This document shows, piece by piece, positions 2,224 through 29,238 of a DNA stretch of 64,000 nt (position 1 is the stretch's first letter; every line of letters begins with the position of its first letter). The stretch spans positions 496,001-560,000 of the forward strand of contig BLLK01000057.1 of assembly GCA_021927905.1 (NCBI GenBank). Reading direction: 5' to 3'. The notes beneath the pieces are model-generated. The model saw only the letters and a list, made by a program, of their open reading frames with translations, was not told where the DNA came from and made no database searches. Origin of the DNA: Chaetoceros tenuissimus. Lineage: Eukaryota; Bacillariophyta; Thalassiosirophyceae; Chaetocerotales; Chaetocerotaceae. A program made the position numbers and the translations under genes.

Positions 2224-2267
2224 ACGAAAGGAAAAAGTCAAGATATTCCTAGGAACTATTCTCAGCA

Positions 2268-3676: not shown

Positions 3677-4704
3677 GATGGCAACTGTTCAATGGAGAAA
3701 TGTATTTGTGCAGTTGGTTCAATCAAGTGGCAGCAAAGGGATGCTATGGAAAATGAGATGGAATGATTTGTATCGACAGTGGATAGATTTGAGCAATGAA
3801 AAATGTTTTATGTGCGCATCAATCCATCGAAATTTTAGTCGTGTAAGGCAAAATCGCCGAAGATGAGAAAAAAATAGCCATCACATACGTATTCAAAATA
3901 TGTGTAGTTCGCCAGTGAAATTATGTTCAAATCCACTATGTTTGGCTAAAAATATATAAATGTCGCAAAAAGAAAGATCTCATGTCTGAGAACTTGTACG
4001 TACATGCATCAAGAAAAGATGCGTAATTTTCAATTTCAATTTCGTTTTCTCTTTCGAGCTTGCTGTACAAAAACATTAATAAAATTTATATTTTCTACAT
4101 AGTTTTGAAGTTTTTCTACTACACACATATATTGATAATAACTTGCTAGTAATAATATTGACATAATCAGCATAAAGTTAGCAGCATAAAGTTAGCAGCA
4201 TAAGATTAGCAGCATAAGATTAGCAGCATAAAGTTAGCAGCATAAGATTAGCAGCATAAAGTTAGCAGCATAAGATTAGCAGTGGAAATGAAGATTACAT
4301 AAGAAACCGCTAAGACCTGAAGTGGAGCTAAGTGGGTCTTGTTCATCGTCTCGTCATCTTCTAGAAGGATTTTTTAACATCCTCCCCCATCATGGTTTCT
4401 AGGTGCTTATCTTACATGAGCATAATTCATCAAATCTAATCGTATATGTGTAGAAAGAAGGTATAGTCATGTTAGAACATGTCCGTCATCTTAAAGCAGA
4501 TAAATACGAAATACGGAAAGTCATATCTTATTATGGTTTTGAAATAAAACTAGTCATAAACACAATACTAGAGTGAGTAATGGTGATATCCTTGTTGACA
4601 AGTAGCACAGTACCAATGCTGACTACAAGGGGTTTTACTTTCATCGTCAATGTCATGCGATAGTTGAGGCAGGTTTCTGAGAAAAAGAATAAAGAGAACG
4701 AGCT
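3677..4704. other. Spacer between the Myb and TGIF-box genes of copy A
   Basis: This stretch carries the upstream region of the Myb gene. No gene is recognised. Bases 4061-4416 have no counterpart in copy B, where 31023-31171 holds unrelated AT-rich sequence. The copy-A-specific part contains the 14-base minisatellite. Confidence 0.6.
4169..4280. repeat. 14-base minisatellite, eight units
   Basis: Eight consecutive 14-mers of the form AGCATAAAGTTAGC or AGCATAAGATTAGC fill this interval exactly. The two variants differ at the centre (AAGTT or AGATT) and occur in the order a a b b a b a b. The array is absent from cassette copy B and lies inside a segment unique to copy A. Confidence 0.97.
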
Positions 4705-6114
4705 TCACTTCTTTCCGACCATTAAGGAAAGCAGGGCATCTTGCACTTTTTTGGTCCTACTCTTTCTTCCATCTCGTATTTTATTTATGTCGCCATCTTT
4801 GAGATCTTGTGGAGGGTAATCATTGAACGTAGGTGATTCCTGCAACTGTGAGAAGAATTTAGGGGAGAATATTCCAGTATTTTTGACAGCCACCCAGAAA
4901 TATTTGTTGAATGGGTTCTTTGGAGGTTCGCCAACCCTTGTATGGTTCTTCTCAAGCATGTTGCAGAATTTGTTAAACTCAATTCTGCCATTTTTCTCTG
5001 GTATGGTCGGGAGCTTATCGGCTATCTGTGGTTTATCTTTGCAAATTTTATTCCATTCCTTTCGAAGCAAAGTATGTACAAGGCCTTCCCTCATACACAC
5101 ATAAATCATGAGTTTGGCAAGAGCTCCTGGGCATTTCGGGTCTTGACTGCCGTTACAAGACATTTGAAAGCAGTTTGTGCAACAGCAACAACGATTTCTT
5201 GGCAAGTGATTCAAACCGCTGCATCCCTGATTGTGCTGAGTCATGCAAGATTTGCAATAGGCCATATTTGTATCCAACATTTCACCATAGAGATATTTCA
5301 TTGCGGTTGTTTGATAATTGTTTCCATTCTCTTTATGCCCCTTGATGATATCATCATAAAAGAGATTATCAATAGAAGTTCCAAGCAACCTCCAACCAAC
5401 AATGGCAGCATTCGTGAGAGTCTTTTTTTGCGCTGTCACTTGAGTAGCTGTGGAAACTGAGCGATGGTTCTTTGCGCCGTTGCCATCCTCTGTTTTGGCT
5501 CCGTTGATATGAACATATCCACCAGCACTGTTTGTTTTACTTCTCTTGGAAGAATTCCCATCGACACACATGTGATACTGGTTTGAATGAACAGAATTGT
5601 TCTATTCCAAAAATGAATCTTAGATGCTGAAATGACAAAATAGAGAATACTAGAGGTATGATAAAATACTTACATCCTTGTGATGATTGTTTCCACTCAT
5701 TGAGGTAAGGGCTTGAGACGATTTTACTTTTGCATGACTTGGTGAATTGTAAGAGTTCTGGGATATAGTTCTAGGAAATGAGCTGCCAGCTCTAATTTCC
5801 TCCGCAGGAGAAATACTGGTGATAAGGTCATCGTTTCCTACCGGTATGGACATGATCATTGCTCGTAGAATCCCTTCCAATTCTTCATTTTTACGAGAAG
5901 AAAGCTCAAGTAAAGTATTTTTGTTTTTGTGAATTTTGCCCCAGCAGTCTCTGACCATTTCGTAGCTGTCCACTTGATTTTGTATTTCCTCTGAAATCGA
6001 ACCTCTGTGTTTTAGAGCAGTTCGATACATGAGTGTTTCAAGAGAACCAATACTCCTGAGAGTTTTCTGAATGATGTCTTTGCTACTGCTAGAATTTTCT
6101 GTGTTCACATTCAT
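4705..6114 (-). CDS. Cys-rich protein with C-terminal TGIF box, cassette copy A
   Basis: Two exons, 6114-5674 and 5577-4705, joined across a 96-base intron (GTAAGT..ACCAG, phase 0), give about 437 aa. Copy B keeps the same sites and phase. The first 147 residues are helical and Ser-rich. The middle carries a Cys cluster, YCKSCMTQHNQGCSG...RCCCCTNCFQMSC, spaced like a zinc-binding module. The C-terminal third contains EWNKICKDK and FWVAVKNTGIFSPKFF. The last motif recurs in two small genes in this window (38577-38870 and 48954-49283), so it marks a conserved domain of unknown function. The C-terminus is basic (RKSRTKKVQ). The gene is head to head with the acidic Ser-rich gene. I cannot name a family; a nuclear or DNA-binding role is only a guess. 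Confidence 0.7.
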
Positions 6115-6747
6115 TTTGGATTGGGTGACTTGATACTTTTACTTGTATAATATGTATGCACTTCTTCCGCTCCTTTGAAGGTAGCTTCTTTTTGCACAAA
6201 AGCTCTGTTTGTGGAAGTGCTCAACATAAATTCTCTGTCAAATTTGAAAGAGGCTGAGTCGTGGAAAATTTGAAATGGGGTGAGGAATTTTCCAAAAGTA
6301 AAAACGGTAACATGAACTTTAGTTTTGGAATGAAATAAAGATCTGAATTGATTCCAGCAACGATTCCAATGAATCAGTAAAATTTTAATTATATACTTAT
6401 AGTAGCTTTCAACATTCAAAATCACTCATTACATGTATATGCATAGATTTGTTCCTCGTCGTTACCAAAATATTTTTTCTTTTTCCTCCCCGCGCCGTGA
6501 TATTTGCCGTTGAACATGTAACGCTTTTACATCAACAATTTGTACCAGGATGAGTACGTACATAGAAGATAATAATGTCTTCTAAAGTCTTTTTTGCCAA
6601 CCCGTCGTAACTTGACACAACATGATGTTCAAAGGTCGACCTCCTTCAGTTTTGGACAGATGGAGATCGTTTTTGCACTAATGTTATTTCAACCAAAACA
6701 TTAAATCAACTGAACGTCAAGCTCATTCATAATTGCAACACAACATC
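6115..6747. promoter_or_regulatory. Divergent intergenic region, TGIF-box and acidic genes, copy A
   Basis: This is the shared upstream region of two head-to-head genes and is conserved in copy B (32867-33502). A frame at 6111-6425 overlaps the TGIF-gene start, but it lacks an early ATG and is cut short in copy B, so I regard this as 5' leader and promoter. I identified no defined TATA box or operator. Confidence 0.4.
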
Positions 6748-8247
6748 ATGCCGATTGACAACAGCAGCGATGACGACTCTACCTTCCAGCCATTAGAAGA
6801 CGCCGTTCTTGTGCAACCTACTGCTTATAAGAAGGCGGACAACGCAGAAGATGATTCCAATAGTAGTTCCTCGGAAGGTTCTGTTGATGATGAATCCGAT
6901 GTAGAAAAGAAATCTGAGTCTGTGGCAAGAACAATCGAAGATGCAGTGGTGGAAGATCATCATGACTCTCCTGAAACCGTAATAAGAGAAGATGATTCTA
7001 GAAGTTCAAATAAGGAGGATGGAAGGAACCATAATGCTCACTCTTTCGACGAGTCAAATGAATCCAATGAGGAGACCAAGTCTTTCGATGCAAGCGAACC
7101 GAATACTATTTTAGATTTTGACGAATCCTTGCGTAAAATATCTTTACTAAAAAGAAAAAAAGCAGAGGAAGAGAAAAAGCAAACTAATCATGCAGCTACA
7201 TCGGAACCAGCAAAAGGCATTCCGTCTACTCTTGGAACTACCACTAGTGGAAATAAGATTAAGGATCATGGTGATGATTCCAATGCAAAGCAAAAAGACA
7301 AGAATGAAGCAAGCATTGATACTCACGACAACAAAGGCAAGTGTGACGAAAAAGATGAAGCACAATTTGATTTAGTTGATGATGAGCAATCGTTTGGAGA
7401 GCAGAGTGGATCTGATTCTGATATCAAAAGTAGCGATGTATTTCAACCGAATGATCAATGTGATAGCACTGAAAATACTTCAAGCTCTATGGAGGTGCAG
7501 AATTCTAAACAAGATCAGTCTCAAGCTACGGAAAAGGCTTTGAAAGTTCCTTCTCCTGCAACCTCAATCAGTGACAAAGAGAATAGTAAAGGTTCTATCA
7601 TTGACAGTGGAGCACCTTCATCTAATAGCAATCAAAGTTCGTCTAGTCGCGAAAGTGATGCTGCATCTGACCCTAGTCCTAGCGAACATTCTACTCAAGG
7701 CAAAGTGCAAAGTGCAAAGTCAGAAGTAGCTGCGTCGAATCCCGCTTCTTTGTCCCTCTTTAAGAATGCAATAGAATTTGCAACTCCTAATGAAAACAAT
7801 GCTTCTTCTGAAACAGAATGCAAGGAAAAGAAATTTGACTCGGACCCAACTGCTTCATCCTCGCCTCCTAGTGAACATACTACTCAAGACCAAAAAGAAA
7901 TTGCTTTGGAGAGTACTAAATCTTCTCCTCTCCTCCACAATAATGCTTCCTCTAATCCTGAAGTGGAGGTAATAGCTGCTGCATCCTCGCCTCAAGACAA
8001 AATGAACCATGAAAATGAACAAATCGATTTGACGAGTCCTTTATCTACTCCTCTTATCGTCCCTGCATCGAAGGGCCAAGCTCTAGATACCAGTAAAAAT
8101 GATGCTTCATCTGACAATCAAAAGAATACTTCAAAGGTACATTCGAAGCCATATAACAATAATCGCAGAAGACCATATTTCGGACAGAGAAAAAGAAAAC
8201 TGGAAGTTGACGATGAAGCATTGAATAGAATTTTCCCTGATGATTAG
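6748..8247 (+). CDS. Acidic Ser-rich disordered protein, cassette copy A
   Basis: The frame starts at ATG 6748 (MPIDNSSDDDSTFQPLEDAV) and encodes 499 aa. It is dominated by Ser, Asp, Glu, Lys and Asn with no globular core, apart from a short conserved segment NTILDFDESLRKISLLKRK near residue 125. The C-terminus switches to a basic RRRPYFGQRKRKLEV stretch, which looks like a nuclear localisation signal, and then ends acidic (NRIFPDD). Compared with copy B the protein differs by many substitutions and by insertions of 1, 2 and 7 residues, all in frame, so the frame appears to be maintained while the sequence drifts quickly. It resembles intrinsically disordered nuclear proteins in composition only. 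It has no intron and is divergent from the TGIF-box gene. Confidence 0.75.
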   Translation: MPIDNSSDDDSTFQPLEDAVLVQPTAYKKADNAEDDSNSSSSEGSVDDESDVEKKSESVARTIEDAVVEDHHDSPETVIREDDSRSSNKEDGRNHNAHSFDESNESNEETKSFDASEPNTILDFDESLRKISLLKRKKAEEEKKQTNHAATSEPAKGIPSTLGTTTSGNKIKDHGDDSNAKQKDKNEASIDTHDNKGKCDEKDEAQFDLVDDEQSFGEQSGSDSDIKSSDVFQPNDQCDSTENTSSSMEVQNSKQDQSQATEKALKVPSPATSISDKENSKGSIIDSGAPSSNSNQSSSSRESDAASDPSPSEHSTQGKVQSAKSEVAASNPASLSLFKNAIEFATPNENNASSETECKEKKFDSDPTASSSPPSEHTTQDQKEIALESTKSSPLLHNNASSNPEVEVIAAASSPQDKMNHENEQIDLTSPLSTPLIVPASKGQALDTSKNDASSDNQKNTSKVHSKPYNNNRRRPYFGQRKRKLEVDDEALNRIFPDD

Positions 8248-10302
8248 AAGAGATCTCGAATCTGAACTCAGCTACCAAGAGCCTACTGTCAGGGAAGACA
8301 CAAAGGACAAACTCATACTAGGCATCCACATAGAAAACTATGAACTCTGGAAGCAGCTTGTTAAAGATTCCATTGTGTGAAGATACTCTATTAAAATTAA
8401 TTATGGAGCTGATTATATTCCCCATGTGTCATATTTGTAAAGTGTAATGTCGTATATCTTATTCTTTGATTCATGCAAACCTGATGTGCTCGTCAAAGAT
8501 ATTGATATTATTTACGAGGAAGTCTCTCTTCTTTCAAAGCGTCCTCTTAGGTCATGTGAATTTGAACAAGACTCAAGACCTTCATCTATTGCTTCAATTC
8601 TTTTGTCTACTTCTACGGTGGTCCTTCAGTGTCGAACTAAGTTAGGCTTTGATCATCGTAAAGAAGGTAGCATAAAATCTATTAGCACTTTTCTTTGGAT
8701 TTGGAGAAATTTCCAAACCACTACACTTCTTAGAGCAGCTGCTTTTCATGTAACTTCTTTTCTAATTGCAAAGACAATGACAAAATAATAAATTCTTTCC
8801 TTCTACTTTCACTTCTTTTTCTTTCCTGAAAATTTTTCATTTTTGACTTATCATGATTACTTAAGTTTCTGCCATTTAAGAGAATCCAAACTGTACTCGC
8901 CTTTCAACTTTTCAAATTACTTGAACGTCAACCAAGGCCAATGATCTTCTTACCTACCTATTTGGCTGATAGCTAGCTATATAGAAATGAGAACTCTGTA
9001 CGTAATGAAAACCATTTTATTAGTGACCTAATAATATTGCTGAAGTCCCTATTAATACAGTATCTTCAAACCTTTCAATTAAATCTACTATAGTAATCAT
9101 TATGACAAAAACATTTTGTCGTTTTCTCACATTTCATCGGAATTTCACTATTGTTCTCATCTTTATTTCAACGAAAATGACTTAATTACAGAAATAGTCG
9201 AGCTTGTGTGATACATAAGCAATAGTTTTCACATTCCTCTGTGCAGGTGGTAGGGCACAATAAATTATTGCATGAATGGAGATAGGTAGGTCAGTTCAGT
9301 TCAGTTGCAAGTTCCATCCTTTTGGTGTAAATCCGTTTGTTACATTTAAATGGCTTTAAATGGCTATGGTCTTCTACATGATTAAGTGGCACGATGATAG
9401 CATTGTGGTGTTTTTTTGTTGTGGTGTTGTGAGATGTGAGACATGTTTTGCTATTGTTATGACTGTATTTTTTATTCCTTCCTTTCCTAGTGACGATGTA
9501 TGCATAGCAATATTACTAACTCAAGTGTTTCTATTTGATTTGCCGGTATTTTGAGAGTGAAGAGTATCCGCTCTGGCTTCTTCTGCAACGATTTACAGGC
9601 GGTAATAGGCAGGATCATGATCTGCCTTGGCAGACGAGCGAACATATCCTTCAGGAGCGAGGATATAATATCGTTTTATGGCTTAGAATGCCACCGATAG
9701 AGGGAATGGAAAGAGGAAGATAGGCACATGGTTTCATAAGAAAAACTAGTACTACCCGTATGCACTATCCATACGACTTAGTTTAAAACTGTTGGCTAGG
9801 CACCACAACATCCTTATTGGAAAGGAATAAAAGATGTACATTCCATAAGAATTTAGCAGCCATAGAATGGACAAGTATTGTTTGTAGAGTGTCAAAGGGG
9901 AAATTTTAACACAGTTGTATGTCGATGTCTAAAAGCTTTGCAGAGACAAATGGCCACAAAACCATTATCTTTATATTTTCAATGCGTTATTTCAAAAATT
10001 TAAATCTTATCTGATCAAATGTGGGTAGACAAAAACAGAACAACTACTAAGGACGATTGCCATGAACAAGGAGCACTCGAATTGTCCGTCAAGATAGAAC
10101 TTGATACATTGCAATTGCTGACTAGATCTATTTATTTTCGAAGCAGGTTCAATTAAAGACTAGACGCTCTATCGACTTGGCTTCTTTTCAACAGTGGGAT
10201 TTTAAAAGATAACATTTGGTTGTCAGACTAGGTTCTTTCTAGAGGGTACCCAAGCAATCTTGGTAATCTTGTGTTATTTACTTGCTTCTGGGTCGATGTT
10301 GC
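8248..10302. other. Spacer, end of cassette A to the helicase gene
   Basis: The first ~500 bases are the low-similarity tail of cassette A. A 113-codon frame at 8447-8788 lies in it but is interrupted in copy B. From about 8790 to 10302 I see AT-rich DNA with no convincing gene or repeat. It contains the 3' flank of the helicase gene, which ends at 10303. Confidence 0.5.
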
Positions 10303-13300
10303 TTATGGAAAATCTCCGACTTGAGTGAAAAATTCATTCCGTAAGCCACGATCTTCAGTCAACGAGTTAAAATTAACTGATGACAACGCCAAAGATTTGA
10401 TTTTATCGAACTGTTGAGGTATCGTACAATTCCAGTTATATTGTTTCGCAATCTTAAGACAACAATAAATGCGAAAATATTTCTCGAGGCCATTATGGTC
10501 GGGGAACCAATCTTCACGGCACCCTGTACACGAAGGTAATGGACAATAATGGCATTTGTAGGAACCATTTAGTTCAGTTGGTATGTATATTTTCCTGGTA
10601 AAATAAAAAGCTTTCATTCTCAAGTAAGCTTTCAAGAAAATATGATCTCGGCCATTAGGATGCGAACAGTTAGGGTTAGGATTCTCAGAATCATCGAAGT
10701 ATTGCGCCAATTGACATTTGATGCATCCTTCATGTTTGCCAGGCCCCATTATATTTTTAAGGTGTTCGTTGCTCAGATGCTCTAAATTTGGATCTTCTAC
10801 ATTGTGAGATTTCAGAATTGATATCTTGTCGTCATTATCCTCCGTGTAGTATTTATCCCATTCATTGAAATCTGTTTCATTTTTGGCAAAGAAAAAAGAA
10901 TGACCACTTTCATTACTCACTCTGGATGCTCGAGAGGCGGACTGGAGGTAATTGCAGACACCAAAGTAAGTCTCAACATGAATCGACACATTGCATGTTG
11001 TATTATCTATTCCCACAGCTCCTGCAGTTGTACATATTGCAAATTCACATTCTTCCTCTTGAGTCCATTTCTTTGCTGCCTCCTTATTACACTCGTCACC
11101 TTCTTGCTGCCTAGTTATATACACTGTTGAATTGGGACCGAATTCCCTCACAAATAGAGCAGTCATGGTTTGCACCAATTCCTTTGTTCTCAAGAATATG
11201 ATGACATCGCCAATTTCCTCTTTCACTTGACGAATAGCTTTGCATATTAGAAATAATCTTGCCCCTTTTTCACATGGCGACATCTGTACAGTTTCATGAA
11301 AGAGATTATCAGGAATAGTAGATTGGCTTCTGTATACACCATCATTTAGTTTGAAGGCTGGAGTAGGATCTGAAACCGATTTTGACTGCTGTTTTCGCAA
11401 GGATTGGTGAAATAACAAAGACTTTAAAAGCTTTTCATCTAATCGTGATACCGTTCCTGAAAAGGCAAAGATTGGAACGTTCTCATTTTTCAAAGACAAT
11501 ACTTCCAGATTCTGATGAAATTTCAGAAAAGTATGAGCTATGCTATGGGCTTCATCAAATACTATACCCTTAATGTAACCACATCGAACAGCTCTCCTTA
11601 CTTCAAGTATATTCAAAGCAGCCATTGTATATGTACAAACCAATATATCAGGAAATGCTAGAGGCGATTTATTTTCTTCGCGGAATCTCTGCAATTGTTC
11701 TTTAAATCTCTTTGGTTGGAAATATTCAATTTTAAGAAGATTCGTTCCTTGAAACTTTGCAAATTGGGTTTCTCTTAATGACGAAGTTGGAACAAGTAGG
11801 AGTGTGATACCATGCTGCCAGTTGGGATCTTTATAATCTTCTGGAGCTTCGTTTCGAAATTGTTGAACTAAATTTAGAGCACGCTCGTCATAATCCTTCT
11901 GCACTCTTCGATGAAGCAGCTTAATGTTTGCTTCGAGATCTACCTCCTCTATTCTCAATAGATATTGCATAAGACTATCCATATTCCGAATCGAAGCAAG
12001 TGCTGTTTTTCCAGAGCCACATGCAAATATATGAAGAGAAGATCTAGCTCCAGTCAACATTTCGTTGACACTATCCAATGTCTCTTCTTTTCCTTGATAA
12101 GTAAAGTCAAAGAATATTTGGTACAGAAGCGAAAGTAGTTTTGTACAATTGGCACCATTATGTCGAATGTTGCGAAATGAAGTTTTGTTGACTACTGGTA
12201 GAAATGGTTGTATTTCGTCAGTCAAAGTAAGCCCGTAGAATGCATACATTCCTTCGTCCTCCCTCAAGAGATTTTTATCAAGCTCTGAGTTGGTTTTGAT
12301 TCCAAATGCAGAAACTTTTGAATTTGAATAGCTCTTTGCATGTGTTTGCGATGTATGATTAAACATCTCGAATCCGTTACTTAGATTGCCCATACCATGG
12401 AATTTTGCATTGTTAAGTCTTTCTTCTCTCACAAAACATTTTTTCGCACCTTTGATATGTGTCAACACAAGATCTTCTTTCTGAAATGTCTCTTTTAGTT
12501 GTTTTCGAAGAGTGTGCTTCATGATCTTATCTGAAACTTTTGCAATCTTAGCGTCAAAGAATATTTCTACGAAGTAAAAATGTCGAAGTGTATGGCGATC
12601 ATGAGGATTCATCTTTTTTCCAAAGATTGAAGTGATAGCGTTTCGAATGACTAAAGTTGTGCATAAAAGCCTGCATATTTCCTTCGGGAGGAAATGAACA
12701 TGTGCACTTGTCAAAGAAATCTGCAAAAATTTAGGATGATTTTTGACTGCAGCTATCGATGGCCTACTACGATCGAATATTGAAGACTTTCCAAGGGAAA
12801 AGTCACAAAGTTCTTTAATCGAAGGGGGCTCGGAAGGATATGATATGTACAATATTTGTGCGAGATAAAACATGCAGGTGTTATGTATATTGACCAAATT
12901 CTTGAGAGCATCGTTGTTAGCATCACAGTGTTGCTTTATTGTTTCAGAGAGAGTAGTATGCGCGATATTTTTATTAGAGTATGCAAAACTGAAAACAATG
13001 GAATGACTTGAAAGACGGTTGAGATTAATACAAATGATAAAATGCAAACAAGAGATATAAATGTTACCTTGTTTCTTCAGTTTCGTCTACAGAGAAATGA
13101 TCCCCCTCTTCAAAGTGTATTTGAGCTCGGGATAGTGTTTGTTCTATATCGGCTAAGCCGATAATGTTGCTGATTTGTTCGTAGATAAATTCTCCTGATC
13201 TATCAATAATCTTTTGACAGGCATCTTCGAAATCTTGTTTGACAAACTCAACAACGGCTGTTTTTTGAATTTTAGTGTAGTAGGAGCAAGTGTAAACCTT

Positions 13301-15004
13301 TCGTTCGCCTGTCTCTGTCACACGAACTTCTGAAGATTTATTTGTAGATGCCTGATATTCTTCTATCGCATACAAACTAGAACTCAAATAATGTAATGTT
13401 TCACAGTATGGAAGTGCTGAATGAATAAAGTCTTTGTTCTTGGCAGTGAGTGCTACAAGTCGTAGAATCAACAGCATACTTTCTAAATTTCTTTTGAGAA
13501 CCCTTGGTGTATTTGAATTCATCAGTAGATGAGGTGATCTGAATTTCTCTAAATCTAACGAAACTGCAAGTATTAATGCTCCATAAAAGTTTTCTTCTTT
13601 CTTGGTAGGGGATAACTTTTTCTCAGATCTTTTACAAACACTTCCGAAATCAAGAATCCACTTGCACATTGTACTCATTTGCTCATTTTCATCAAGTTCA
13701 AGGAAAGCTTCCCATTGTTGCCTGTATCTCGACTGTACTACCTTCGCTGTATAATGCAAAACCTTTTCAAGTAATACTTCAATTTGCATTCTACTCCATG
13801 TAGATTTTGGGACAAACATCCGTTCGGATTCTGATTTAAGATTGGAGAGTCTTGTAAAAGGTAGCTCCAAATTTCTATATCTAGTGGCATCTTGAAAATT
13901 TGACTCAAGTAACACAGCTCTTCTTATCGAGTCAGTGTATAGAACCATTTGCTTCTCAAGTCGATTTAAAAATGTAGGTGCCAAGTCTACGACAGCCCGC
14001 AACTCATTGTTCGTTGGTGGAAATACAACAGGGTGAAAGTGCAGGCAAAACTTTTCAATATCGCAATGGAAGACGTTTCCAATCAGGTTGAAGTAATAGT
14101 AATTTGCAAATTGTTCGCATTTCGGCCAAGCCAATGCTGCATTGTACGAGTGTAACTCTTGGTGAAATTGTCTCTTCTTGGCTTTCATTTCATTGGAAGC
14201 TTTGCTCAGAGTTTCAATAACTTCTTCTGAGTCCTCGTTATTTTCATTGAGTGCATTTTCTGCCGCTGTCAATAACTCATCAAGGTTGGAATCTGCAGCA
14301 AGTGTTTTGGTCTGGAAATTGCAATGGCTCCTCTTGTCGTCATCTGTCCAGTCAATAGAGCTCGCCTTGTCTTTCAAATTAATTTTTTGCATATACTCAT
14401 TCTCCTCTTGAAGGCAAGTTTCTTCTGAGCGGACGAATTGTGAATGTTCCTCTCGAAGCTTGTACACGCCAATGTAGCGCAAATGAAGCTTTTCGTTGTA
14501 AATATCGTCAAATAAATTCAAAGGCTTTCCTTTTGTATAATTTTGACTACCTGAGCGTTTCACATAATGTTTTAGTACAAAGCATTCAACCAAATGAGGT
14601 TCTACGCCACAATCGCAAGTTTCATCAGTAGCAACAATCTTTTTACATTCATAACAATACCTCCTCTGTTTCACAGACTCCAAATATTTCTTTTGGTGAT
14701 TTTTGATAAAATTGACATGAATTCGGTGCTGCTTGACCATGAACTCTATATCTTTGCTTATCTTTGCATCAATCTCTTCAAATGCAGAATCACTGAGATC
14801 GAAGCATGTGCACAAATGATGTTTGAATCTGCGTTTATGTTGGAAGGGATGCCATTTCGGCTTTCCATTTTCATGTTTGCACGCAAAACAGACATATCCA
14901 AACATCGGTACAAATCCAAACAGCGAGGTCGGAATAGGAATTCTCTGGCTCCTTTCTTCATTCTGCTCAACACCACCTTCTTTTTGATCATGATCATCAG
15001 CCAT
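10303..15004 (-). CDS. OrsD/DUF3505-like zinc-finger plus SF2 (RecQ-like) helicase fusion
   Basis: Two exons, 15004-13068 and 12988-10303, are joined by a 79-base intron (GTAACA..TTTCAG, phase 2) into 1540 aa; without splicing they look like two genes. The N-terminus has Cys/His pairs (VCFACKH..., RRYCYECKK..., CDCG) like the C2H2-like region of fungal OrsD/DUF3505 proteins. The middle (about 630-870) matches the layout recalled from fungal telomere-linked helicases, with HFLPKEICRLL and NHTSQTHAKSY. The helicase core is complete: motif I CGSGKT (~969-974), Ia LLLVPTSSLRETQ, II FDEAH (~1123-1127), III FSGTVSR, IV DVIIFLRTKEL, V TTAGAVGID and VI QSASRASR (~1328-1335). A Cys-rich tail follows (CHYCPLPSCTGC). 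Expected activity is ATP-dependent nucleic-acid unwinding in the nucleus. The gene is head to head with its diverged paralogue at 15349. Confidence 0.85.
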
Positions 15005-15348
15005 TTTTGAAAATACAAATTGAAGGAGAGAAAGTGTGAACTGCTTTGAGTGTTTTCATTTTCTCTTAATTCCTTTCGAAACGTGAGATGCTTGATGGCT
15101 GTTGATTGGAGTTCAATTCCTGTATGTATTAATTTAGTTTAACATTTGACATTTTTGTCACAGGGGTGCTATTTTGCTCATTTTTATTTCCCCCCCACCT
15201 TCGCAGGAATTACAATTGGTTTCTAGCTACTGCTGCAATCTTTTCTTGTCACTTTTGCGGTGTCGCTATCTATCGATCGAATAACCTTTGCATTCCTTTT
15301 ACTTTACAGTATTTTACAGACAGTGTTTCATTTACAATTCTCAAAACC
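15005..15348. promoter_or_regulatory. Bidirectional promoter region of the helicase pair
   Basis: Only 344 bases separate the start codons of the two head-to-head genes, so their promoters must overlap or be shared. The stretch is T-rich and includes a CCCCCCCACC run near 15190. A longer frame from 15166 would place it in the plus gene, but that frame lacks an ATG at its start and encodes low-quality hydrophobic sequence before the acidic MSDEDDESMF start at 15349. Confidence 0.5.
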
Positions 15349-18300
15349 ATGAGTGATGAAGATGATGAGTCAATGTTCTCAGAAGATGACGAGCCATTGA
15401 TTGGTGACGATATTTGGCCAGAGAATTTAAGAAACTATTTGGAAACGATCCATGACATTGTCAAAAGAGATAATTCTAAGGACCATAATTTGGAAGTAAC
15501 TTGTCGGAATTGCGTGGATTCTTTCAATGTTCAAACCACAGATTCTGTATATTCAGTGAATATAGAGGATACTATGCCTTTGATCGCTATTGCGGACAAT
15601 GAAGAAGCACTAGCACAAGAAGTAGCCAAACCTCCTCTTTATGCGATTTTTGTCAACTTTGTTTTAGAAAATGAAATAGATTGGAATAAGCATCAATTCA
15701 AGGTTATCGATATTGAACTTGATGATCAATTAAATTACGATGGGAATCATGATGGGCTTCTTGCTCGAACTGTTGAGTTTGTCGACCGCGGTGAAACTGT
15801 CGTGCTTGCGATACAAGATATATCAAAAAGAGAAATGATTTTTATTGATGCTATTCGGGCAAACTATATAACTCAATGTGAAGAGATATGCGCAAGAATG
15901 AATATTCAATCTTCTCTTGGCTCGAATATCAATTACGAATCTGAAATTTGCCATTTAAAATGTGTTGAGAAATTCATGGAAATTATCCGTCCAAACGATA
16001 CTATTGATGGGTATGACGCATGGTCATTGGTTGAAATGAGTTTCTGGAGAGCAGTATTGAAATATGCAAGTGAAAATAACCTCATCCAGAATACAGAAAA
16101 TAGAGTTGGTGCTCCGCACTTGTCTGGGATGAACCGTAGAGCAAGAAAAGGATATCAAGGTATGTTCATGTTATTTTCTACAATGTTACCCCTTCAAGAA
16201 TCGTAATCTAATGCTTTCTGAAGGCACAACAGGTGTAGACTCGCAAATGGCTTTCTCATTTCATTACAACTATGGAGTTTATTGCCAAAAGTGCCAGGAA
16301 TATTTTAAGTGTTGCGATGTAAAAACCTTTGCATTTTACAATTTTGTTAGTAGTCATTTGCGTACAAGACACAAAGACTTTCTACAATTTCATCTAACTT
16401 TAGCAAATAAGCTTACAATTGAAGCTCATGAACAATGTATTAATGTAGCTGCGCTTTACAAGAAATTTGGGAATAGTCCAACCAATGCTGAAAGGAAGAC
16501 GTACTTTGAACAAGAATCAGAGGCAAAAGGGTTCTTACAAAATATTAAGAAGAAAAATCGTTTCTACAAGAACTTCATAGGGACTGCGAAATTTCAAGAA
16601 GAAATCAATGCTGTTGCATCAGGTTTCACACTTGAACAATTGCTTTCTCATACTTTAGAATTGATTCCTCAGATTACTTGGAGACCAAATCCTTTGCTCG
16701 AAAAAATTCAATTAGAAGTTGAAAATTTAGTGGAAATCATTTTCCACCCAACAAATGATTCTATGGACAGGCAAGATTTTCGTAATAAAGTCAAGAAGCA
16801 CATTCACAACTTCAACCCCGAGATACTTGATTTTGCAGAAGTTGTTGCAAAACTACCAGTTGAAAACGGGTGGGGTGGTGACTTTGAGCAATATGCAAAA
16901 GACATGACTACCACAATGCACGATGAAATTTCTAGATTCGAGATGGCCATGCTTGATTGCGTACCAATAATTTTGAAGGAGGGTATCAGAGTTCTTGATG
17001 AGACAGACTCATTGGGCAGAAAAGCTTTAGCCTCGGTCTGTGAGCACAATGTGAAAGAAAATACCAAAATATCATTTTTGAAGGGTACTATTGCGGAATT
17101 ACTTCATGATCGGGGAATAAATGAGAACAAAGATGACTTAGTTGACCTTGTGCGAACAAACCCAAAATTAGCTACAAATATTGCGCTACACACCACAAGT
17201 CTCTTTGACAAATCTCATCACAAGAAGCCGAATCTATTGAGAGAGATTACCAAGGGAGCATGTGGTCAATATTCCAATATTTTCAAAGAATATCTTCTCT
17301 TCCTTATTCGGAGACAAGGACAAGGCACGTCTTTTCATCTTGTCCCAAATTGGGATCGAATTAAAACACATTTTAGAGATGTAGGAGATAAATTGGCAGA
17401 GGAGGAAAAGAATGGAGTAGAATGTTATGAGCCGAATATCCATGATGTACGTTTCGTTGCCTCGTTTATTCTGGCTTCTTTGAACCTAGACGAGAAAAGA
17501 AATGACCTCATAGAGATTACAGAACCTGGTTTATTCTGTAGATCTAGAGCTTTGATGTGGACGACTTCTGATCTCGCTGAAGATAGTCTAATGTATAGGT
17601 CTGATATATTTGACGAGCGCTCTCCAGCCCATACACACAAAGCTACAACAGCCTTACTTTACTCGTTTCGAATGTGTGTACTCTTTGCTGATAGATATCG
17701 CCAGGACAGGAACTCAGACAATTTAGACTTCGCAAACTTCCCACATACTTCAACTGTTTTAACTCTTGCTGGTCTTGCAACACTTGTCAAGCCGTATGAA
17801 GATATGCTTCAGTCTGGTTTGAATGCTGCTGAAATGAATAATCATCTCGATGCCACACCCTTTACAGATTCCTTTACAGTAAGGGTTGGAAAAGAGAAAA
17901 AAGAAATCACTGTCCATGCAGCAATGATTCGAAGAGCTCTCAAGAAAACAATCCTCGACTTTAAACTTAGGTTTCGAACATGTATAAATGAGCTTTGTGA
18001 AAATGATAGCAATTTGCTGCATTTGCTTGTGTTCGTACTAGAAGAAAATTGCAATTTCAAAGAATTTGAAGCAAAACATGATGGAAGGTTAGTTATATCT
18101 CTTTATTCGTCTTTGTTATCCATTCTCACTGACACTGCTTCTGTTGATTCAGAACTATAATTTACGTTGGATCTACTTTCAAATATCAAGACGAGAGCAT
18201 GAGTACAGAGCAAATAGAAGAAAAGATCCTGACGTGTTTGCAAGCTATGGATGAAGAACAAAAGAAAGAAGGTATTAGGAAACTTGTTTTTCTTCACAAT

Positions 18301-21081
18301 GATCTACAGATTTGCTTGTTTACGATCTTGCAACTAGGGGGCACATTTGGCCATCCTCGTGGAAGTGAAATAGCTAGAATTTGCCAATGCAAGTTTCAAC
18401 AAAGTACCTCCTTGTCTTGGCGCCATTCCGACGTTGTTTTTGTAGCTGACAAATTGGCAAATGTCCTCGAACTTGTTTATAACGGCAATTTAAAATCATC
18501 TCTCATAGGCAAACAGCAATTGCTACGTGAAGAGACCCGGCGGTGTTTTGTCCTCGAGTATTTGATAAGACGTATCATTCTAGCTTCTTCTCCAAATACA
18601 ATTTCTTGGGCAGAAGTACCATATCTGAATCGTTTCAAGGTTGAGGATGGCCATATTTCCGCCGATGATGCATTTGCTACACACCTTGGATTCACTTTAG
18701 ACCCAGACACCTTCACGATAGTTGAAAACCATGCTGATGTTTGTTTAGACAAGTTGGAAGAGGTTCTGGGAATTGATATGCAACTTAGTAAATGGAGACA
18801 AATTAGGTCATCTTTTGCAAGTTCAATCTTGGACTTTTCAAGAAATCTAAACAATCTTCAAGAAAAGGAAGAAGTTTTCTTCAAGGTTCTTGGCCAGGAA
18901 GGTTTTTCTCACCAACCTTTCAATCTTTCATCGGAACCTTTCACTCAGCAACGAGAGCCATTCATTCATTTACAGGATGCAAGGTTGCAAGATGAATACA
19001 AAGGCATGTATCTTGAGTATAGGAATAGCCTTGGTGATATGGCATTTATAGTCAATTCAAATTTTTCAGAAGTGGATCTATACAAATGGGAAGAGAATGC
19101 CAATAGAGAAAAGAAGTTGGTCAGAATTCTAGTCACACCTTCGAAAGAGCTTGCATCTCTACGAGCGAAATGTTTGGAAGGAGTTGACACAATAAATGTA
19201 ATGTTCGATTTCGAAGACGGCAACATCGATTATGACATTTTCCATGAGAGGAATTCTAAACAAATAGTGATCATTCTCACTTTAGAGAATCTATTGGAGT
19301 TTGATTTCAATACCTTGCGAAAAATGGACAATCTGGATATAAGAGAGATTATGTATACAGATCTTCCGCTGGTTTTAGCAAGAGATGACGAGCTATGTAG
19401 ACTTGAAACTGTTCATAGACTAAATATCTTTGAACAGCAGTTTACACCCCAAATTGTGGTAATGCCACCGCTTGGAAAGGAAATTGAAGGCAAAGTCTTA
19501 CAATCAGTAGGATCTCAAGTAATCTTTTCAACAGCCCAGATAAATCGATTCAAAGTCTTGAAAGCAGAATCTACAACCGACACACAAGATACCATGGACA
19601 AATTAATTCAGTGCAATGGCAAGCATGCCTGCTCAAATATTCAAAAACTGCTAAGGCAAAATTTGAATCTATACAAGACAATTGATGACTTTGAAATAGA
19701 TGACTTCGTCAATGCGCTTGATGCAAGACCTTTATCTCAGAGTAATTGCGAGCTTCTAATTCTATTTCTTCCGTCATCAAGAATGATCAACGAAGTCTAT
19801 GAAAATTGCAACATCGAAAATGCTCTTCTACTTCCAGATACCAAAGAAGAAAGTATAGGAAAATTTGTGGAAGGCTTCTCAAGTTTGCAATTTGAAAGTC
19901 ATTCCAGAGTTGTCATTATGGCTATCGCCCATAGTGCATACATTGTTCATAAAATCATGAGCAATGATATTTGTGCAAGAGGTGATGATCAACAGCAGAG
20001 CTTGAGTAGCTTCACTGTGGCATATTCAACCCACGAAGTAGGTATATACAATTTTCTTCAATGTTTCTGCTGTAGATTGAACAATGAAGATTCGTTCCTC
20101 TATGTGCATGACGAGGAAATAATGAAAGTCAGACAAGAACAAACTATTAATTGTAGAGCCCAGGAAGTTTATCAATCAAATGGTAGTTTCACACAAAAGT
20201 CCATGGCAGAGATGATTTGCTCTGAAGATCCATTGCGATACCTTACAGTTTATGTCGGTGAAGAAGACGATGAAACCTACTTTTCACTCGAGGATTCGCA
20301 GTCAGATGAAATTGGTACAGATCTATTTGCGAGTCTCAGCTCTCACATTAGAAGAATAGTGCCTGAGAATAATGCTGTTCCGATTGCTACTCTTGTGGCT
20401 ACATTTGCATCAGAAGATCAGGAGGGAAAGATTGAGTCTTTTCTATTCGATGGAAGATACAATCGCTGGGTTCCTCCATACATCAGAATACAAATAAAAA
20501 AGCAAGAGAAGAAGAAAAACTATTCCGCATTTAGTTCTTTCCCGAACGATTTAACCTTTAATCTTCGCCAACATTTTGGTTTCAGTATGGAGAGTTGCTG
20601 TTTTAATTGTTCGTTACCGAATCACTCCGCTACGAACATCAGAAAAAACATGAGATCATACCATATCAATAAATATCGAGAGTACTGCTCGAACCAAAGA
20701 CTGGCCAAACCTAATTCCACAGAATGTATTTTTGATAGAAGAATGTGCATCATTAGTAGTGCGAAAGATGATTTCTGTGACACCTGTTATTTGCATAAAA
20801 ACCTTTGGCCAGCTAGCCATCACGAAGGAGCTTGTCCTGGTGATATATTGTTCATTTATATTGTAATGGTCTTTGGAGACCAAGACCTTTACGAGTCATT
20901 TTTAGTATCCGTTCCTAATGCAAAATCAGAAACAGAGTGCATGGATTATGAATTACTACTACAAGACTACCAGGAGTCACTTCCGAAATGGACTAAAAAC
21001 TTGCATTGGCTTGTTGCGACTGAGAAAAACAATAGAGAATTCTGGTATTTTGTATCGAAACGATTTTCCAAAAAGAAATAG
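15349..21081 (+). CDS. OrsD-like zinc-finger plus degenerate helicase (pseudohelicase) fusion
   Basis: Three exons, 15349-16159, 16233-18087 and 18153-21081, give about 1864 aa. Introns are GTATGT..CAACAG (an alternative acceptor at 16224 keeps the phase) and GTTAGT..GATTCAG. Residues 1-270 are an acidic domain absent from the neighbouring paralogue. Next comes a C2H2-like unit, YCQKCQEYF...SSHLRTRH (~288-317), as in OrsD/DUF3505. Then come YSNIFKEYLLFLIRR and GHPRGSEIAR (~956-963), both matching the fungal telomere-linked helicase layout. The helicase region is colinear with the minus-strand gene, but the motif I region reads MAFIVNSNFS instead of FACGSGKTAL, DEAH is TDLP, and motif VI is QCFCCRLNNE; motif Ia (ILVTPSKELASLR) is recognisable. 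The Cys-rich tail (CCFNC...CDTC) is kept. ATP hydrolysis is unlikely. Open frames over 5.6 kb argue for a functional non-catalytic partner rather than a relic. Confidence 0.8.
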
Positions 21082-22800
21082 ATTTAATCTTACTCTTCTA
21101 ACACACTCATGTAGGTAAATCTAATTAGAGTACTAATAAAATCCACCAATACTTCTAGTAAGTTGCTCAAATAGGAATGCATTTGTCGTTTCTCACTACT
21201 ACAATCCTATACCGAGAAATTGAATTGGAACCAATAATATTTATACCAACTTTCACTAAACCCATTCCTTCTTCTTTGCTCATCCCCAAAGAAAAGGTGT
21301 TTGTTTCTCTAATATCGCAATAGCTTAGCCTAATTGTCCAACTTCGTGTTTATAGTGTTCCATGAATGTGAATGGTATGTGCAATTCGAGGAAGAACTCA
21401 TTCTCAACTACTATCCCGCAAGCCAATAAAATAAACGACGAGAACATGGACGCCTTCATGTACGAATAGATAGGATTCAGCGCCAGTAGACAAGTCAATC
21501 TATTCCGGTACTAAGCGAACCTCTAATGAATTCTCGTCTCTTTTGAAACCATTGTGTTATAAATGCACTCAACATGAAAGATACACAAGTACATATATAC
21601 TTGCAACAAGTTAGATCCGCAAGAGATGATCAATAATAACCTTTCACAGCTTGCTTCAAAGTCTGAAGGGCAACGAAGGAAGATAGCTAGATTTCTTCTG
21701 TAGAGTTTTGGTTTGATCACCATCACTGCAACTTGGGATCCGATTCTAGTTGCTCCTTCCTCTATCTTGGTTCCCTAAGTACTCCTTAATAATAAACACT
21801 TCACTTCACATCCTCCGTTTATTCGTTTCACTGGTTGAAATGGTTGTGTTTTTGTTTGATTGAATGCAAAAGTATGGTATCAATGTGCGGTTTCGTTTTT
21901 ATGAAAAGTCTTCTCATTGTCTTTTACTTTCCATTTCCTTCCCTTTTGTACCTTTTTTGTGAAGAAAAAAGCTCTCATTTTTCTATTTATTTTTATAAAA
22001 AAAGTCTATTTTGTAAAAAAGTAGCTCTACCTAGCATCATGTATATTCTCCTTTCCATATTCTATGAGCCATTTGATATAAAAAGTTAGTGATATATTGT
22101 GGGTTGTATTGTAACCTTTGTTCCATAGAAGTAATTCAAAGTTTGCACAGGAATGAAAATTGTAGTTATTTGCTTGAATAAGAACATTGCGAGCCTTTTC
22201 ATTTTGCAACTCTCACTCTTCCCTAGCTTTTACATATTTATCGCTTTCCCCTTCCCTAATTATTTTATGAGAGCCCCAATGTAATTTTCGATAATCCAAA
22301 TGAATCATACAGCATGATTTTCAGTTTCACATCACTTTTGATTAGATCCTAACAATATAAAAGATTTATCGACCGAAACATAATAGGAATGGATCTTGCG
22401 TATCCGTTCGGCAAGAGAGGCACATATGGACGCTCCAATTGACGCATTCTCTAATAAGGATCTTTTACGTGAATGGATCGGTCTCGATCCAACCGGTAGG
22501 ACATATGCTTCAACAGTATGCTCAGGATCCTCTTGTTCAGTAGCCTAGGCTCCTTCGAAACAAGCTCTCTTCTTTAGGTTTGCTAACCCAATTCACTTGA
22601 TCGATTGGGTCTGCATTCCAATAGTGGCATATATAAAAGATACCATTTGGCTGTATAAGACGATTCTGTAATCATTATCTTAGTAAATCTTTTGTTATAG
22701 ATCTATACATTAATTGAATATACCCATATGTCACCTAGTTGACAGGAATATCGCCATTTGCATGAGTCTCGATGGATTGATTTTCAACTCAATTGTTTTA
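21082..22800. other. Spacer between the pseudohelicase and SUMO protease genes
   Basis: The 3' ends of two convergent genes face each other across 1.7 kb. No gene is recognised. Around 22390-22550 the sequence is less AT-rich than its surroundings and carries a ~45-codon open stretch (IDAFSNKDLLREWIGLD) without identifiable homology; it may be a relic. The rest is AT-rich with no clear repeat. Confidence 0.4.
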
Positions 22801-25800
22801 CTACTGCATCTGTATCTGTTGTTTCTTTGCTTTCTTTGCTTTCTTGTTCGTTTTCTTTTCTTCAATCTTTTGTTTATAGATTCTATGGAGATCTTGAATC
22901 AAGATTGCCATTTCCTCACGAAGTCTTGCGATATCATCCATTCCAAAGTCGAAAGCTTCTCTTTCTGTGATATATTCCTTGATGAGCTTTTTCCTTGACT
23001 TCACATTTCTCCAGTCTGCGAGTTTGCATTCGATGCGTGTATCAAGTAAATGCAGCATTGCAATTGCATACCTGCAAACAAATACTCCACAATCCCAACA
23101 GTTGTCTTGCGTAGGAACTTTTGTCATTGGAGAGATCAAAGTCAGTCACCCAGAGACGAAAGAATGAAAGAACAAGTACTCAAACATAGAAAAGCTTACC
23201 ATGTGCAATCTCAACAGGACATGTCACAGGTACAAATGGATCCTTTCGGTCGAATTTACGAAGCCTTGCTGCTTCTTTGTTTAGCCATGTGTAAAGAGTT
23301 CTTTGTAGCTTGGACTTTTTATGAGCGCGAAGTGAGTCCATAAATAGAACATATGGATGCTCCAAGTTTCGGTTGCATGCTTCCTCGTCGTCGTCTGAGA
23401 TGATATTTCCTGGATTTACAATCACAAGTAGTGACCAATGGATATCTTTATTGACCGGAACAAAAACATATTTCTTCTCAAAGATATCAATATTCTTTTT
23501 CGCAGTCCAAGACACGACAGACTCGACACCTTCCTGTTCAAGCTTGGTATAGAATTGAGTAGTAAATACATGGACTTGGTCTGAGACGTTCCCCATGCGA
23601 TGGATCAGCCAACTGATCCAAAAGTCTATGAGAGTATCATTGAGGAATTCTCCCGGTGCCAGCCTATCGTAGTCTTCTCCTCGAATAGTGATGATATGAT
23701 TCTTCTGCTTCCTATTAGGAGCCTTCTCCTCGATGGCAACAGTGCTAAACATTGATTCATGGTTTTGTCCAATTTTCCCATTTGGCTCAATGAGGTTGCT
23801 AGCTACGGAGTCCAATTCCGTCTCTAGAAGTGTTGATGGGAAGACAAGAGCTGTTTCGTGCTCTGCACAAATAGGTGCCATTGGTTTCTTGAAATTCAAA
23901 AGACTGACAATTTCTTCTTCGAGCTTCTCAGGAGTTAGCAAATTATTGTCATTTGTGAAATACATCCCAATTGTATCATGTTTTTTCAAAAATGTAACCA
24001 GATGTTCAAAATCGGTTTGATTGTTTGACTCAATAACGATGTACCGCTTTGCAAGTAGTGCTGATTTGGTTGGAGTGGTTTTTGGCATTGATCTGAAGTA
24101 ATGCTTGTTGGAAGTAAAAGTGGAAAGCCCATTTTCCTTGGATGGTTTTGCACGAATAATGAGATAATAGTGACTACGAATATCATCATCTGCCTCTTCT
24201 GTTGGTTCCACTATAGATTTCAAAGCATGGTCTGGCTTGGTATCAAGAGATGTAGTCTCTACATGGTCATTTGACTCCCTTGACTGATTTGTACTTGATT
24301 TTGCTGCTTCGAAGTTGTCCTCAAAGTTCATTGCAATATCTTGTAAGTGATCATCTGGGTGAGATACATTCAGCTCATTTTTATTTTCATGTTCACGAAC
24401 AGGATGACTTTGAATAATTTTCTCTAGTTCTGGAGAGCCTTCAATCAACCTTGCAACTTCTTTAGCTACATCTTGATCATTCTTCATCGTTTGATCCACA
24501 CTCGCAATAGCCTGCTCTTCCACAGCTGAGGAGTCATTACTGTCATGACTGCACTTTTTATTCTCTACAGAAACATGTTCCAAAGTATCGGTATCGGGAA
24601 CTTCCTCATCACTTAAATCATCCACACACAATGTATTTTTTCGATTCTGTTTCTCGTGTACAATTTGGTCAGTAGATTGACTAGAATCATGGACTAGGGC
24701 ATCTCCATCATCAGTACCATTGTCATCCAATGCAATGACTTGACTCATGATACCCTCTATATCCTTGTCTACTTCAATCATATCTCTAATCGTATCAGAG
24801 CTTACAACCTGTAGACTCGGCTCTTCGTCCTCTTCTTCCTCTTCATCGTCGATTGTAATTCTCTTCTTTTGCACTTTCAAATTTTTCTTCAAATCAGCTT
24901 CATCATCAATGCTATCTGCTGATTCATTGCCAGTGCTTTCCTCGCTCTCATCTGAATCTCCACCGCTATTACTATCAGTACCTACTTCACGACGACAAGG
25001 CATATAATAATGAATCTCCTCAATATCCTCCGCACCAATATGCAACTCGATTTCATCATTCAAATCAAGTTCAAAAAGTTGATTCTGCTGTTTCGGCACA
25101 TAACTCATCTTCATATTCTCAAAATAAACTTGATTCCCAATAGCAATCCTAGAACATTTCACAAAGCCCTTTGAATCCCTAGATGGTGTCCTTGGAGAAA
25201 TTCCATTGCTTTGAGTTTCATACTCCTGGAGTTTCTCTTGTTCTAATCTTCTACTAGTATTGCGGCTAATATGATTCAATTCTCGATTCAAAGAAGCAGC
25301 AATGACAGCATCATTGTCACAATTTGAAAATTTTTGTGGAATGGGCATATCTTCGTCACTTTCTTCATCGCTAGACAATTCAATCGCTTCATTTTCATTT
25401 TCAACTTCTTGTGATTTTAAACTGCTCTGACTTTGTGAAATAATAGTACCAGCCAGAATTTCAACTCCATCCTCGGATGGCGAAAAGGTTGAAGAATATC
25501 TCTATTACAAATTGACACAGGAAGAATTATGAGCTTGAATACAAAGATGTGATAGACGATAAGTATAACTTCACTTACCATGTATGTTTCATGGAATAGA
25601 GTACAATGTTTTTCAAATAGAAAAGTCAGGATACACTTTTTACCCGCTGAAGTGAAGTCAATGACCCAACTGTCATCATCCGTAGAAGGAGGGTATATCT
25701 GAAAGGTATTTCCTTCGATGTTTTGAAACGGAGCTTTAAAGATGGATTTTCCTGGTTGGTTATTTTCAAGGCAATGACTGATCTTGAATTTTTCCGAAAC

Positions 25801-27493
25801 GAAACTGAGAATAATCAATTCATATTCATCTTTCCTAGGTTTCTGGGCTAGCTTTGTAAAAGATAGTTCAATCACTTCAAATTTATATAACATAACAAGG
25901 GTAGGAATTTCTTCTTCTTCTTCTTCTTCTTGATTCTTATCAGGAGAAACGTTTGCCACTGAAGGGGTTGACAATGATAGAGGTAGTTGAATATTCCTTT
26001 CATTGAAAGATTTCTATTACAAATTGACACAGGAAGAATTATGAGCTTGAATACAAAGATGTGATAGACGATAAGTATAACTTCACTTACCATGTATGTT
26101 TCATGGAATAGAGTACAATGTTTTTCAAATAGAAAAGTCAGGATACACTTTTTACCCGCTGAAGTGAAGTCAATGACCCAACTGTCATCATCCGTAGAAG
26201 GAGGGTATATCTGAAAGGTATTTCCTTCGATGTTTTGAAACGGAGCTTTAAAGATGGATTTTCCTGGTTGGTTATTTTCAAGGCAATGACTGATCTTGAA
26301 TTTTTCCGAAACGAAACTGAGAATAATCAATTCATATTCATCTTTCCTAGGTTTCTGGGCTAGCTTTGTAAAAGATAGTTCAATCACTTCAAATTTATAT
26401 AACATAACAAGGGTAGGAATTTCTTCTTCTTCTTCTTCTTCTTGATTCTTATCAGGAGAAACGTTTGCCACTGAAGGGGTTGACAATGATAGAGGTAGTT
26501 GAATATTCCTTTCATTGAAAGATTTCTATTACAAATTGACACAGGAAGAATTATGAGCTTGAATACAAAGATGTGATAGACGATAAGTATAACTTCACTT
26601 ACCATGTATGTTTCATGGAATAGAGTACAATGTTTTTCAAATAGAAAAGTCAGGATACACTTTTTACCCGCTGAAGTGAAGTCAATGACCCAACTGTCAT
26701 CATCCGTAGAAGGAGGGTATATCTGAAAGGTATTTCCTTCGATGTTTTGAAACGGAGCTTTAAAGATGGATTTTCCTGGTTGGTTATTTTCAAGGCAATG
26801 ACTGATCTTGAATTTTTCCGAAACGAAACTGAGAATAATCAATTCATATTCATCTTTCCTAGGTTTCTGGGCTAGCTTTGTAAAAGATAGTTCAATCACT
26901 TCAAATTTATATAACATAACATGGGTAGGAATTTCTTCTTCTTCTTCTTGATTCTTATCAGGAGAAACGTTTGCCACTGAAGGGGTTGACAAAGAGAAAG
27001 AAACTTTCTTTGCCTTTTTTTTAGGTCGAAATTTTGTATTAGACGGAGAACGTAAGATCTCAGAAACCCCCCTTTTACCATGGTTTTGCTTTCTGTCAAA
27101 ATATTTCTGGAGTCTCTTGCATTGAAGGCTTGATATATGTGGACGCTTAGACGAGGTTTCATTTTGATCCTCACGAGTTCTTCTTTTTTTTACACTTTCG
27201 TGGAGGTGCTCATGGTCAAACGGCTGGGAGATATCTTCTTGCACTACATGTGCTTCTTCTTCTTCTTCCTTTTCATGTGCCATTCTCGCACTTTCTACAT
27301 CTTCCCCTTCTTCAAACGAACTTTCATCAGAAGCTTCGTTTTCTTGAAAACTTAAACCTTGCATTGGTTTATTAGTAACTCTAAAAAAACTGTATCCATC
27401 ATTAATCTTGCGAGCGCACTTCAGCAATCCATCGAAGTTTAAATTATCAACGATTCTCTTCAAACCTTCCTCTGTACAGTCAGAGCTATCCAT
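22801..27493 (-). CDS. SENP/Ulp1-family SUMO protease with a triplicated N-terminal domain
   Basis: Five exons, 27493-26603, 26525-26091, 26013-25579, 25501-23200 and 23117-22801, give 1459 aa; all junctions keep phase. The N-terminal ~165 residues are acidic then basic. Next come three near-identical ~145-residue units, each a Glu run, IPTLVMLYKFEVIELSF and a beta-rich stretch ending FHETYM. The centre is acidic and disordered (~630-1050). The C-terminal protease starts near YDRLAPGEFLNDTLIDFW. It has the C48 catalytic set: His in KDIHWSLLVI (~1275), Asp in LFMDSLR (~1309), and Gln and Cys in VPTQDNCWDCGVF (~1358, ~1364). The motif carrying the catalytic Cys is complete only after the last intron is removed. 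The tail is Lys-rich. Expected role: removing or processing SUMO in the nucleus, more like the SENP6/7 (Ulp2) branch because of its size and acidic insert. It starts 59 bases from cassette B. Confidence 0.88.
25502..26992. repeat. 512-base tandem triplication of one exon plus intron
   Basis: The unit starting CTATTACAAATTGACACAGG occurs at 25502, 26014 and 26526, so the period is exactly 512 bases. By eye the first two periods are identical, including their 77-base introns. The third unit, the 5'-most in the gene, has a Glu run six bases shorter, one base difference beside it (CATGGG for CAAGGG), and homology to about 26992. Each unit holds a 435-base in-frame exon, or its equivalent within exon 1, so every copy lengthens the protein by 145 residues. 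Confidence 0.97.
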
Positions 27494-29199: not shown

Positions 29200-29238
29200 A
29201 CGATAGGAAAAAGTCCAAGATATTCCTAGGAACTATTC

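Follow-up and report, generated by a model that had tools for sequence, protein, structure and literature searches.

RecQ helicase genes are known from DNA transposons. KolobokH transposons are described as carrying a RecQ helicase, Kolobok-1_CCri of a red alga as having its RecQ gene on the complementary strand (PMC9587614), and AcademH elements as similar helicase-bearing transposons (PMC10799480, PMC10045372). Fungal RecQ genes in subtelomeric positions are accompanied by OrsD-bearing companions, and for Ustilago RecQ-bearing and OrsD-bearing subtelomeric genes (UTASa/UTASb) are described (PMC10532341). Here we follow up an earlier sequence-only reading of a 64,000-nucleotide stretch of Chaetoceros tenuissimus (the whole of which we call the window), in which two large, divergently transcribed genes had been taken for an active and an inactive copy of an OrsD/helicase fusion. 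The locus consists of a minus-strand gene for a divergent RecQ-like helicase (hereafter minus) and, adjoining it, a large orphan gene on the plus strand (hereafter plus).

At the level of sequence both gene models are established, and the two large opposite-strand genes of 1540 and 1864 amino acids (aa) that had been proposed stand as described. The minus gene runs from an ATG at 15004 to a stop ending at 10303 and yields 1540 aa after removal of one GT-AG intron, which a change of frame forces; four GT-AG options leave more than 1480 aa, of which we picked the donor AAG/GTAACA with the acceptor TTTTCAG. The plus gene extends from an ATG at 15349 to 21081 and encodes 1864 aa once two introns are removed; 510 GT-AG combinations leave more than 1800 aa here, and the consensus donors were picked. 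A codon model trained on 18 other open reading frames (ORFs) of the window gives each gene a positive coding score in the stated frame and a negative one in every other frame. The genes are head-to-head with 344 bases between their ATGs, a spacing that is ordinary in the window: among 30 pairs of adjacent ORFs (at least 140 aa, exons of one gene counted as separate ORFs), 6 diverge, their ATGs being separated by 127-753 bases. Searches for Rfam content and tRNAs found none. The parts of the pair are as follows.

13068-15004, minus strand: minus exon 1, aa 1-645 plus two bases of codon 646; N-terminal Cys/His region and helical part (from the open frame, donor and coding score)
12989-13067, minus strand: minus intron, 79 bp, phase 2
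10303-12988, minus strand: minus exon 2; middle region, RecQ-like helicase core and C-terminal Cys cluster (from Pfam and TIGR00614)
15005-15348, no strand: gap between the start codons, 344 bases
15349-16159, plus strand: plus exon 1, aa 1-270, an extension without counterpart in minus
16160-16232, plus strand: plus intron 1, donor AAG/GTATGT
16233-18087, plus strand: plus exon 2, opening with the CQKC cluster (aa 288)
18088-18152, plus strand: plus intron 2, 65 bp, phase 2, donor AAG/GTTAGT
18153-21081, plus strand: plus exon 3, the supposed lost-helicase region, with no detectable helicase signal; CxxC pairs at aa 1705 and 1764

Its sequence marks the minus protein as a superfamily 2 (SF2) helicase of divergent RecQ type and not a standard RecQ. 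The RecQ-like identity and the motifs CGSGKT, FDEAH and QSASRASR, which the earlier reading had picked out, are borne out by Pfam, NCBIfam and a motif scan, with SF2 motifs I (GxGK[ST]), II (DEAH) and VI (Q..GRAGR-like) all present. Pfam matches to DEAD (E = 6.8e-12) and Helicase_C (E = 6.5e-10) lie within aa 960-1390, and among NCBIfam models that of the RecQ family, TIGR00614, scores best (E = 3.7e-10), although the 39.2 bits obtained are far under the cut-off of 219.8 bits. The best relatives in the PDB are Bloom helicase (BLM) constructs (5e-4), and of 27 plasmid records matched, 17 are named RecQ. The protein is also recovered, at E = 9.9e-15, by a profile made from 34 RecQ relatives of bacteria and viruses with minus excluded. 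Identity to the relatives found is approximately 20-31%. These relatives are remote: a genome-contig search gave at least 20 bacterial loci and one viral-contig search gave 6 RecQ-like loci, while six other viral-contig searches and one genome-contig search returned no relative and a phage search no match. The motifs and Cys-containing clusters of minus are located as follows.

12004-12021, minus strand: motif I, CGSGKT, aa 969-974
11545-11565, minus strand: motif II, IVFDEAH, aa 1121-1127 (DEAH 1124-1127), with DEAH invariant against seven bacterial RecQ
10921-10953, minus strand: motif VI, NYLQSASRASR, aa 1325-1335 (QSASRASR 1328-1335), with Q, R, A and R invariant against seven bacterial RecQ
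14780-14917, minus strand: N-terminal Cys/His cluster, CFAC at aa 39; no Pfam match above cut-off
10501-10725, minus strand: C-terminal Cys cluster, CIKC 1401, CHYC 1458 and CTGC 1466

Minus lacks the aromatic-rich loop WGxDFRP that all 8 aligned bacterial RecQ carry after DEAH, and reads DEAHSIAHTFLKF there; in its C-terminal 146 aa no Pfam family, RQC included, was reported at E <=10. Against the PDB, the middle region of minus matched only Cas1 (0.34-0.37). We set aside the sub-threshold Pfam matches of the N-terminus (HTH_44 of SPT6, 0.0067; DUF5344, 0.0099) and of the middle region (Glyco_transf_92, 0.023; TNF, 0.05; BC10, 0.11).

The plus protein is coding-like and open across its 1864 aa. 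Neither Pfam (above cut-off) nor NCBIfam has a match for it, and PDB searches at E <=10 matched neither aa 1150-1700 nor aa 890-1200. The absence of helicase motifs from plus, one of the claims made for this locus, holds in the motif scan, which finds none of the patterns G.GK[ST], DE[AVC][HD] and Q..[GS]RA[GS]R; the RecQ profile of 34 relatives meets plus at E = 250, a match reported only with filters off. The same scan finds Cys/His clusters near the ends of both proteins, as had been claimed. In plus the N-terminal one is placed as follows.

16283-16396, plus strand: N-terminal Cys/His cluster, CQKC ... HLRTRH; no Pfam match above cut-off

Matches at chance level were rejected: PF23321 (R1_ABCA1) at 0.052 in the finger segment, zf-Tim10_DDP at 0.6 in exon 1, and PHROGs at 0.16-0.33. 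AlphaFold2 run on single sequences gave low confidence for both proteins (pLDDT 36.4 for plus, 34.5 for minus), and because it fails alike on a true helicase, these single-sequence models say nothing about plus. Among the 50 Foldseek matches listed for the plus model, the TM-score by query is at most 0.15 and none is titled helicase, one being an RSC remodeler chain; at such model confidence these matches are meaningless.

The label of OrsD/DUF3505 that had been given to the pair does not hold. Neither protein gave a match to PF12013 (OrsD) at E <=10, even with the finger regions scanned separately, under HMMER filters that discard most matches above E 0.1. The link to the fungal OrsD genes is therefore one of resemblance, not membership. 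Of the arrays that Tandem Repeats Finder reports in the window, none has a TTAGGG-type unit. Literature searches, confined to titles, on OrsD with RecQ, on diatom RecQ or telomere-linked helicases and on DUF3505 showed, among the titles listed, none on such a diatom pair.

Given two large genes that diverge from one short gap, the question is whether plus descends from the same ancestor as minus. The sequence-only reading had both proteins in the same domain order, colinear, with the motifs lost from plus; in the helicase region this is not demonstrable by blastp, hhalign, local alignment, motif chain or profile. With no Pfam match above cut-off in plus and a RecQ-profile E value of 250, the "colinear, motifs lost" description is therefore not demonstrated for that region.

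Several results weigh against common descent. Neither blastp nor single-sequence hhalign of plus against minus gave a significant match, hhalign with the RecQ profile was negative for plus when set against 200 shuffles, and local and windowed alignments of the helicase region yielded no signal. An ordered motif-block test, with 68 E. coli slices and 100 shuffles as the null, left plus within that null: with blocks taken from minus only, its score of 72 was reached by 10 of the slices and 19 of the shuffles, and with RecQ-profile blocks its score of 36.4 was reached by 44 and 45, respectively. Three RecQ positive controls were easily found, scoring 117-141 and 203-240. In a segment grid (30 cells, three scorings, 400 shuffles each), helicase against helicase showed no signal (z ~0.2), and two off-diagonal cells, at z 3.99 and 3.91, exceeded every diagonal cell. 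Two BLOSUM62 scorings of the full-length alignment showed no excess, their scores being reached by 46-56 and by 451-461 of 600 shuffles (fractions 0.08-0.8). The N-terminal clusters do not pick each other in local searches, two of seven blind alignments place the minus intron 62 residues away from plus intron 2, and among 25 options for plus intron 2, 12 have phase 0 and 2 have phase 1.

The remaining comparisons cover the proteins as wholes, their introns and their ends. The full-length colinear alignment of minus against plus aa 272-1864 scored above controls in four of six scorings (shuffle fractions 0.003-0.05). In those four, the score was reached by 2-12 of 600 block shuffles, 8-29 of 600 local shuffles and 5-6 of 194 rotations, and for BLOSUM45 12/1 the counts were 2, 8 and 5. 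When the best scoring was calibrated on 120 pseudo-proteins made of real unrelated sequence, plus stood at z 3.3 and none of the 120 reached its raw score; two of them had z values of at least 3, one being higher than plus (3.75). Plus intron 2 lies at aa 889; in five of the seven blind alignments the minus intron corresponds to plus aa 897, a distance of 8 residues. Both introns have phase 2, which for plus intron 2 rests on the choice of a consensus donor. Within the segment grid, the C-termini compared with each other gave z 0.0-0.3 and the middle segments z 1.9-3.2. When motif VI and the C-terminal clusters are searched locally against the partner protein, they land at colinear positions, with chance fractions of 0.05-0.34, each hit being insignificant alone. 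On these alignments, distant paralogy of the whole proteins is possible and about as probable as its opposite, with weak support, and an active/inactive colinear pair is likewise possible.

The reading we prefer, to which we give an even chance, is that a RecQ-like helicase faces a very old, fast-evolving, motif-less paralogue that arose by inverted duplication. Less likely than this, though it would account for the failure of blastp, hhalign, the hidden Markov model and the motif chain to find significant similarity between plus and minus, is that the divergent RecQ-like helicase gene and a lineage-specific gene of unrelated origin lie divergently by chance in a compact window, where 6 of the 30 ORF neighbours are also divergent at similar or shorter spacing. 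The full-length colinear signal with its near-coincident intron, and the CxxC clusters that each protein has near its two ends, speak against chance neighbourhood. More doubtful still is a further account, in which the two middles are a worn tyrosine-recombinase-like segment and the pair is an inverted-duplicate, lineage-specific recombination machine, minus having kept the RecQ motor and plus having lost it, as remains of a helicase-plus-recombinase element now used by the host; we consider it very improbable. Its recombinase-like boxes would be split between the proteins, H804xxR ... H857TSx6Y866 in minus and GHPRGSEI at 957 in plus. The minus pattern, H..R followed by H[ST]S......Y at aa 804-866 (within 12004-12948, aa 660-974), resembles the last boxes of tyrosine recombinases; it was drawn from recombinase and fungal motifs, was chosen after seeing the sequence and occurs in 8 of 5000 shuffles. 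The recombinase models of Pfam gave no match, which counts against the recombinase account.

We also weighed whether the pair is a DNA transposon or its domesticated relic, with minus as accessory RecQ helicase and plus as an unrecognised transposase of the sort expected from KolobokH, AcademH or Kolobok-1_CCri. This is unlikely, even with a RecQ-type helicase confirmed in minus, an 8.1-kb direct repeat pair bracketing the block and a precedent for the layout in KolobokH and Kolobok-1_CCri, Kolobok also being known from the diatom Fragilariopsis cylindrus (PMC9587614). Plus matches no family of transposases or recombinases, and the repeat genes examined likewise match no transposase family, so that no DDD/E transposase came to light in either. 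The best inverted arms adjoining the pair (9014-9038 and 21118-21142) have a score of 15, which is at chance level, being reached by 11 of 60 null pairs, and TTAA-flanked pairs agree at 11 of 20 bases at most. The window holds no second copy of the pair. The idea of a mobile element, raised in the sequence-only reading, has thus brought to light no convincing terminal inverted repeat (TIR), target-site duplication (TSD) or transposase.

Minus is most likely an ATP-driven DNA helicase or translocase of the RecQ kind, and would be held on its substrate by the Cys/His modules at both ends, which probably bind zinc. Plus would be a large, intact protein, most likely a very old paralogue, that keeps the overall plan, from a Cys/His cluster through a long middle, a phase-2 intron and a core to C-terminal CxxC pairs. 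Because it lacks every helicase motif, plus would, if paralogous, be a pseudo-enzyme, which might bind at most the same DNA or its helicase partner; the two proteins might then act jointly, for which the sequence-only reading proposed a co-expressed heteromer, for example at telomeres. Paralogy would set a helicase and its own pseudo-enzyme face to face, and would offer an algal test of dead copies regulating live helicases. Were the pair instead a transposon relic, helicase-bearing DNA transposons with a RecQ gene on the opposite strand would reach another lineage. If neither holds, the two genes are ordinary neighbours in divergent orientation, one of them coding for a divergent RecQ-like protein.

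The direct repeats lie at 557-8718 and 27552-35514, their aligned pieces being 95.6% and 93.4% identical, and they flank an 18.8-kb block in which both genes of the pair and a Ulp1 gene are found. The two copies have the same four open genes, for which the ratio of nonsynonymous to synonymous divergence (dN/dS) between copies is 0.37, 0.49, 0.54 and 0.68. Those at 2429-3688, 4705-5601, 5650-6138 and 6733-8247 have no Pfam match above cut-off and no transposase; the second contains the Cys-rich stretch CCCCTNCF. The repeat termini were considered as ends resembling long terminal repeats and rejected, no obvious inverted ends or duplication being apparent by eye.

Next to the plus gene, on the minus strand at 22801-25501, is a gene for a Ulp1/SENP-type SUMO protease (PF02902, E = 9.2e-17 in 23180-25501; last piece 22801-23145, E = 5e-4). 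At 25495-26995, a 512-base unit is present in three tandem copies, 96-100% alike where aligned, within an open frame (ORFs 25417-27496). Farther along, a BspA-type LRR_5 gene is duplicated, at 35573-36828 and 49727-50959, with DNA 84.7% identical.

Set beside the described systems, the locus shares with KolobokH and AcademH (PMC9587614, PMC10799480) a RecQ-type helicase beside or strand-opposite to a second large gene, and it differs from them in that no DDD/E transposase, TIR or TSD was found here. With the telomere-linked RecQ helicases and OrsD-bearing subtelomeric genes of fungi (Ustilago UTASa/UTASb), minus has in common a RecQ-like core in a large protein, but OrsD is undetected here and the host is an alga, not a fungus. 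From the RecQ family itself, minus departs in its sub-cut-off score, the missing WGxDFRP loop, the unreported RQC and its low identity; what it holds in common with that family (TIGR00614; human BLM, bacterial RecQ) is motifs I, II and VI, the DEAD/Helicase_C pair, and RecQ as its best-scoring family.

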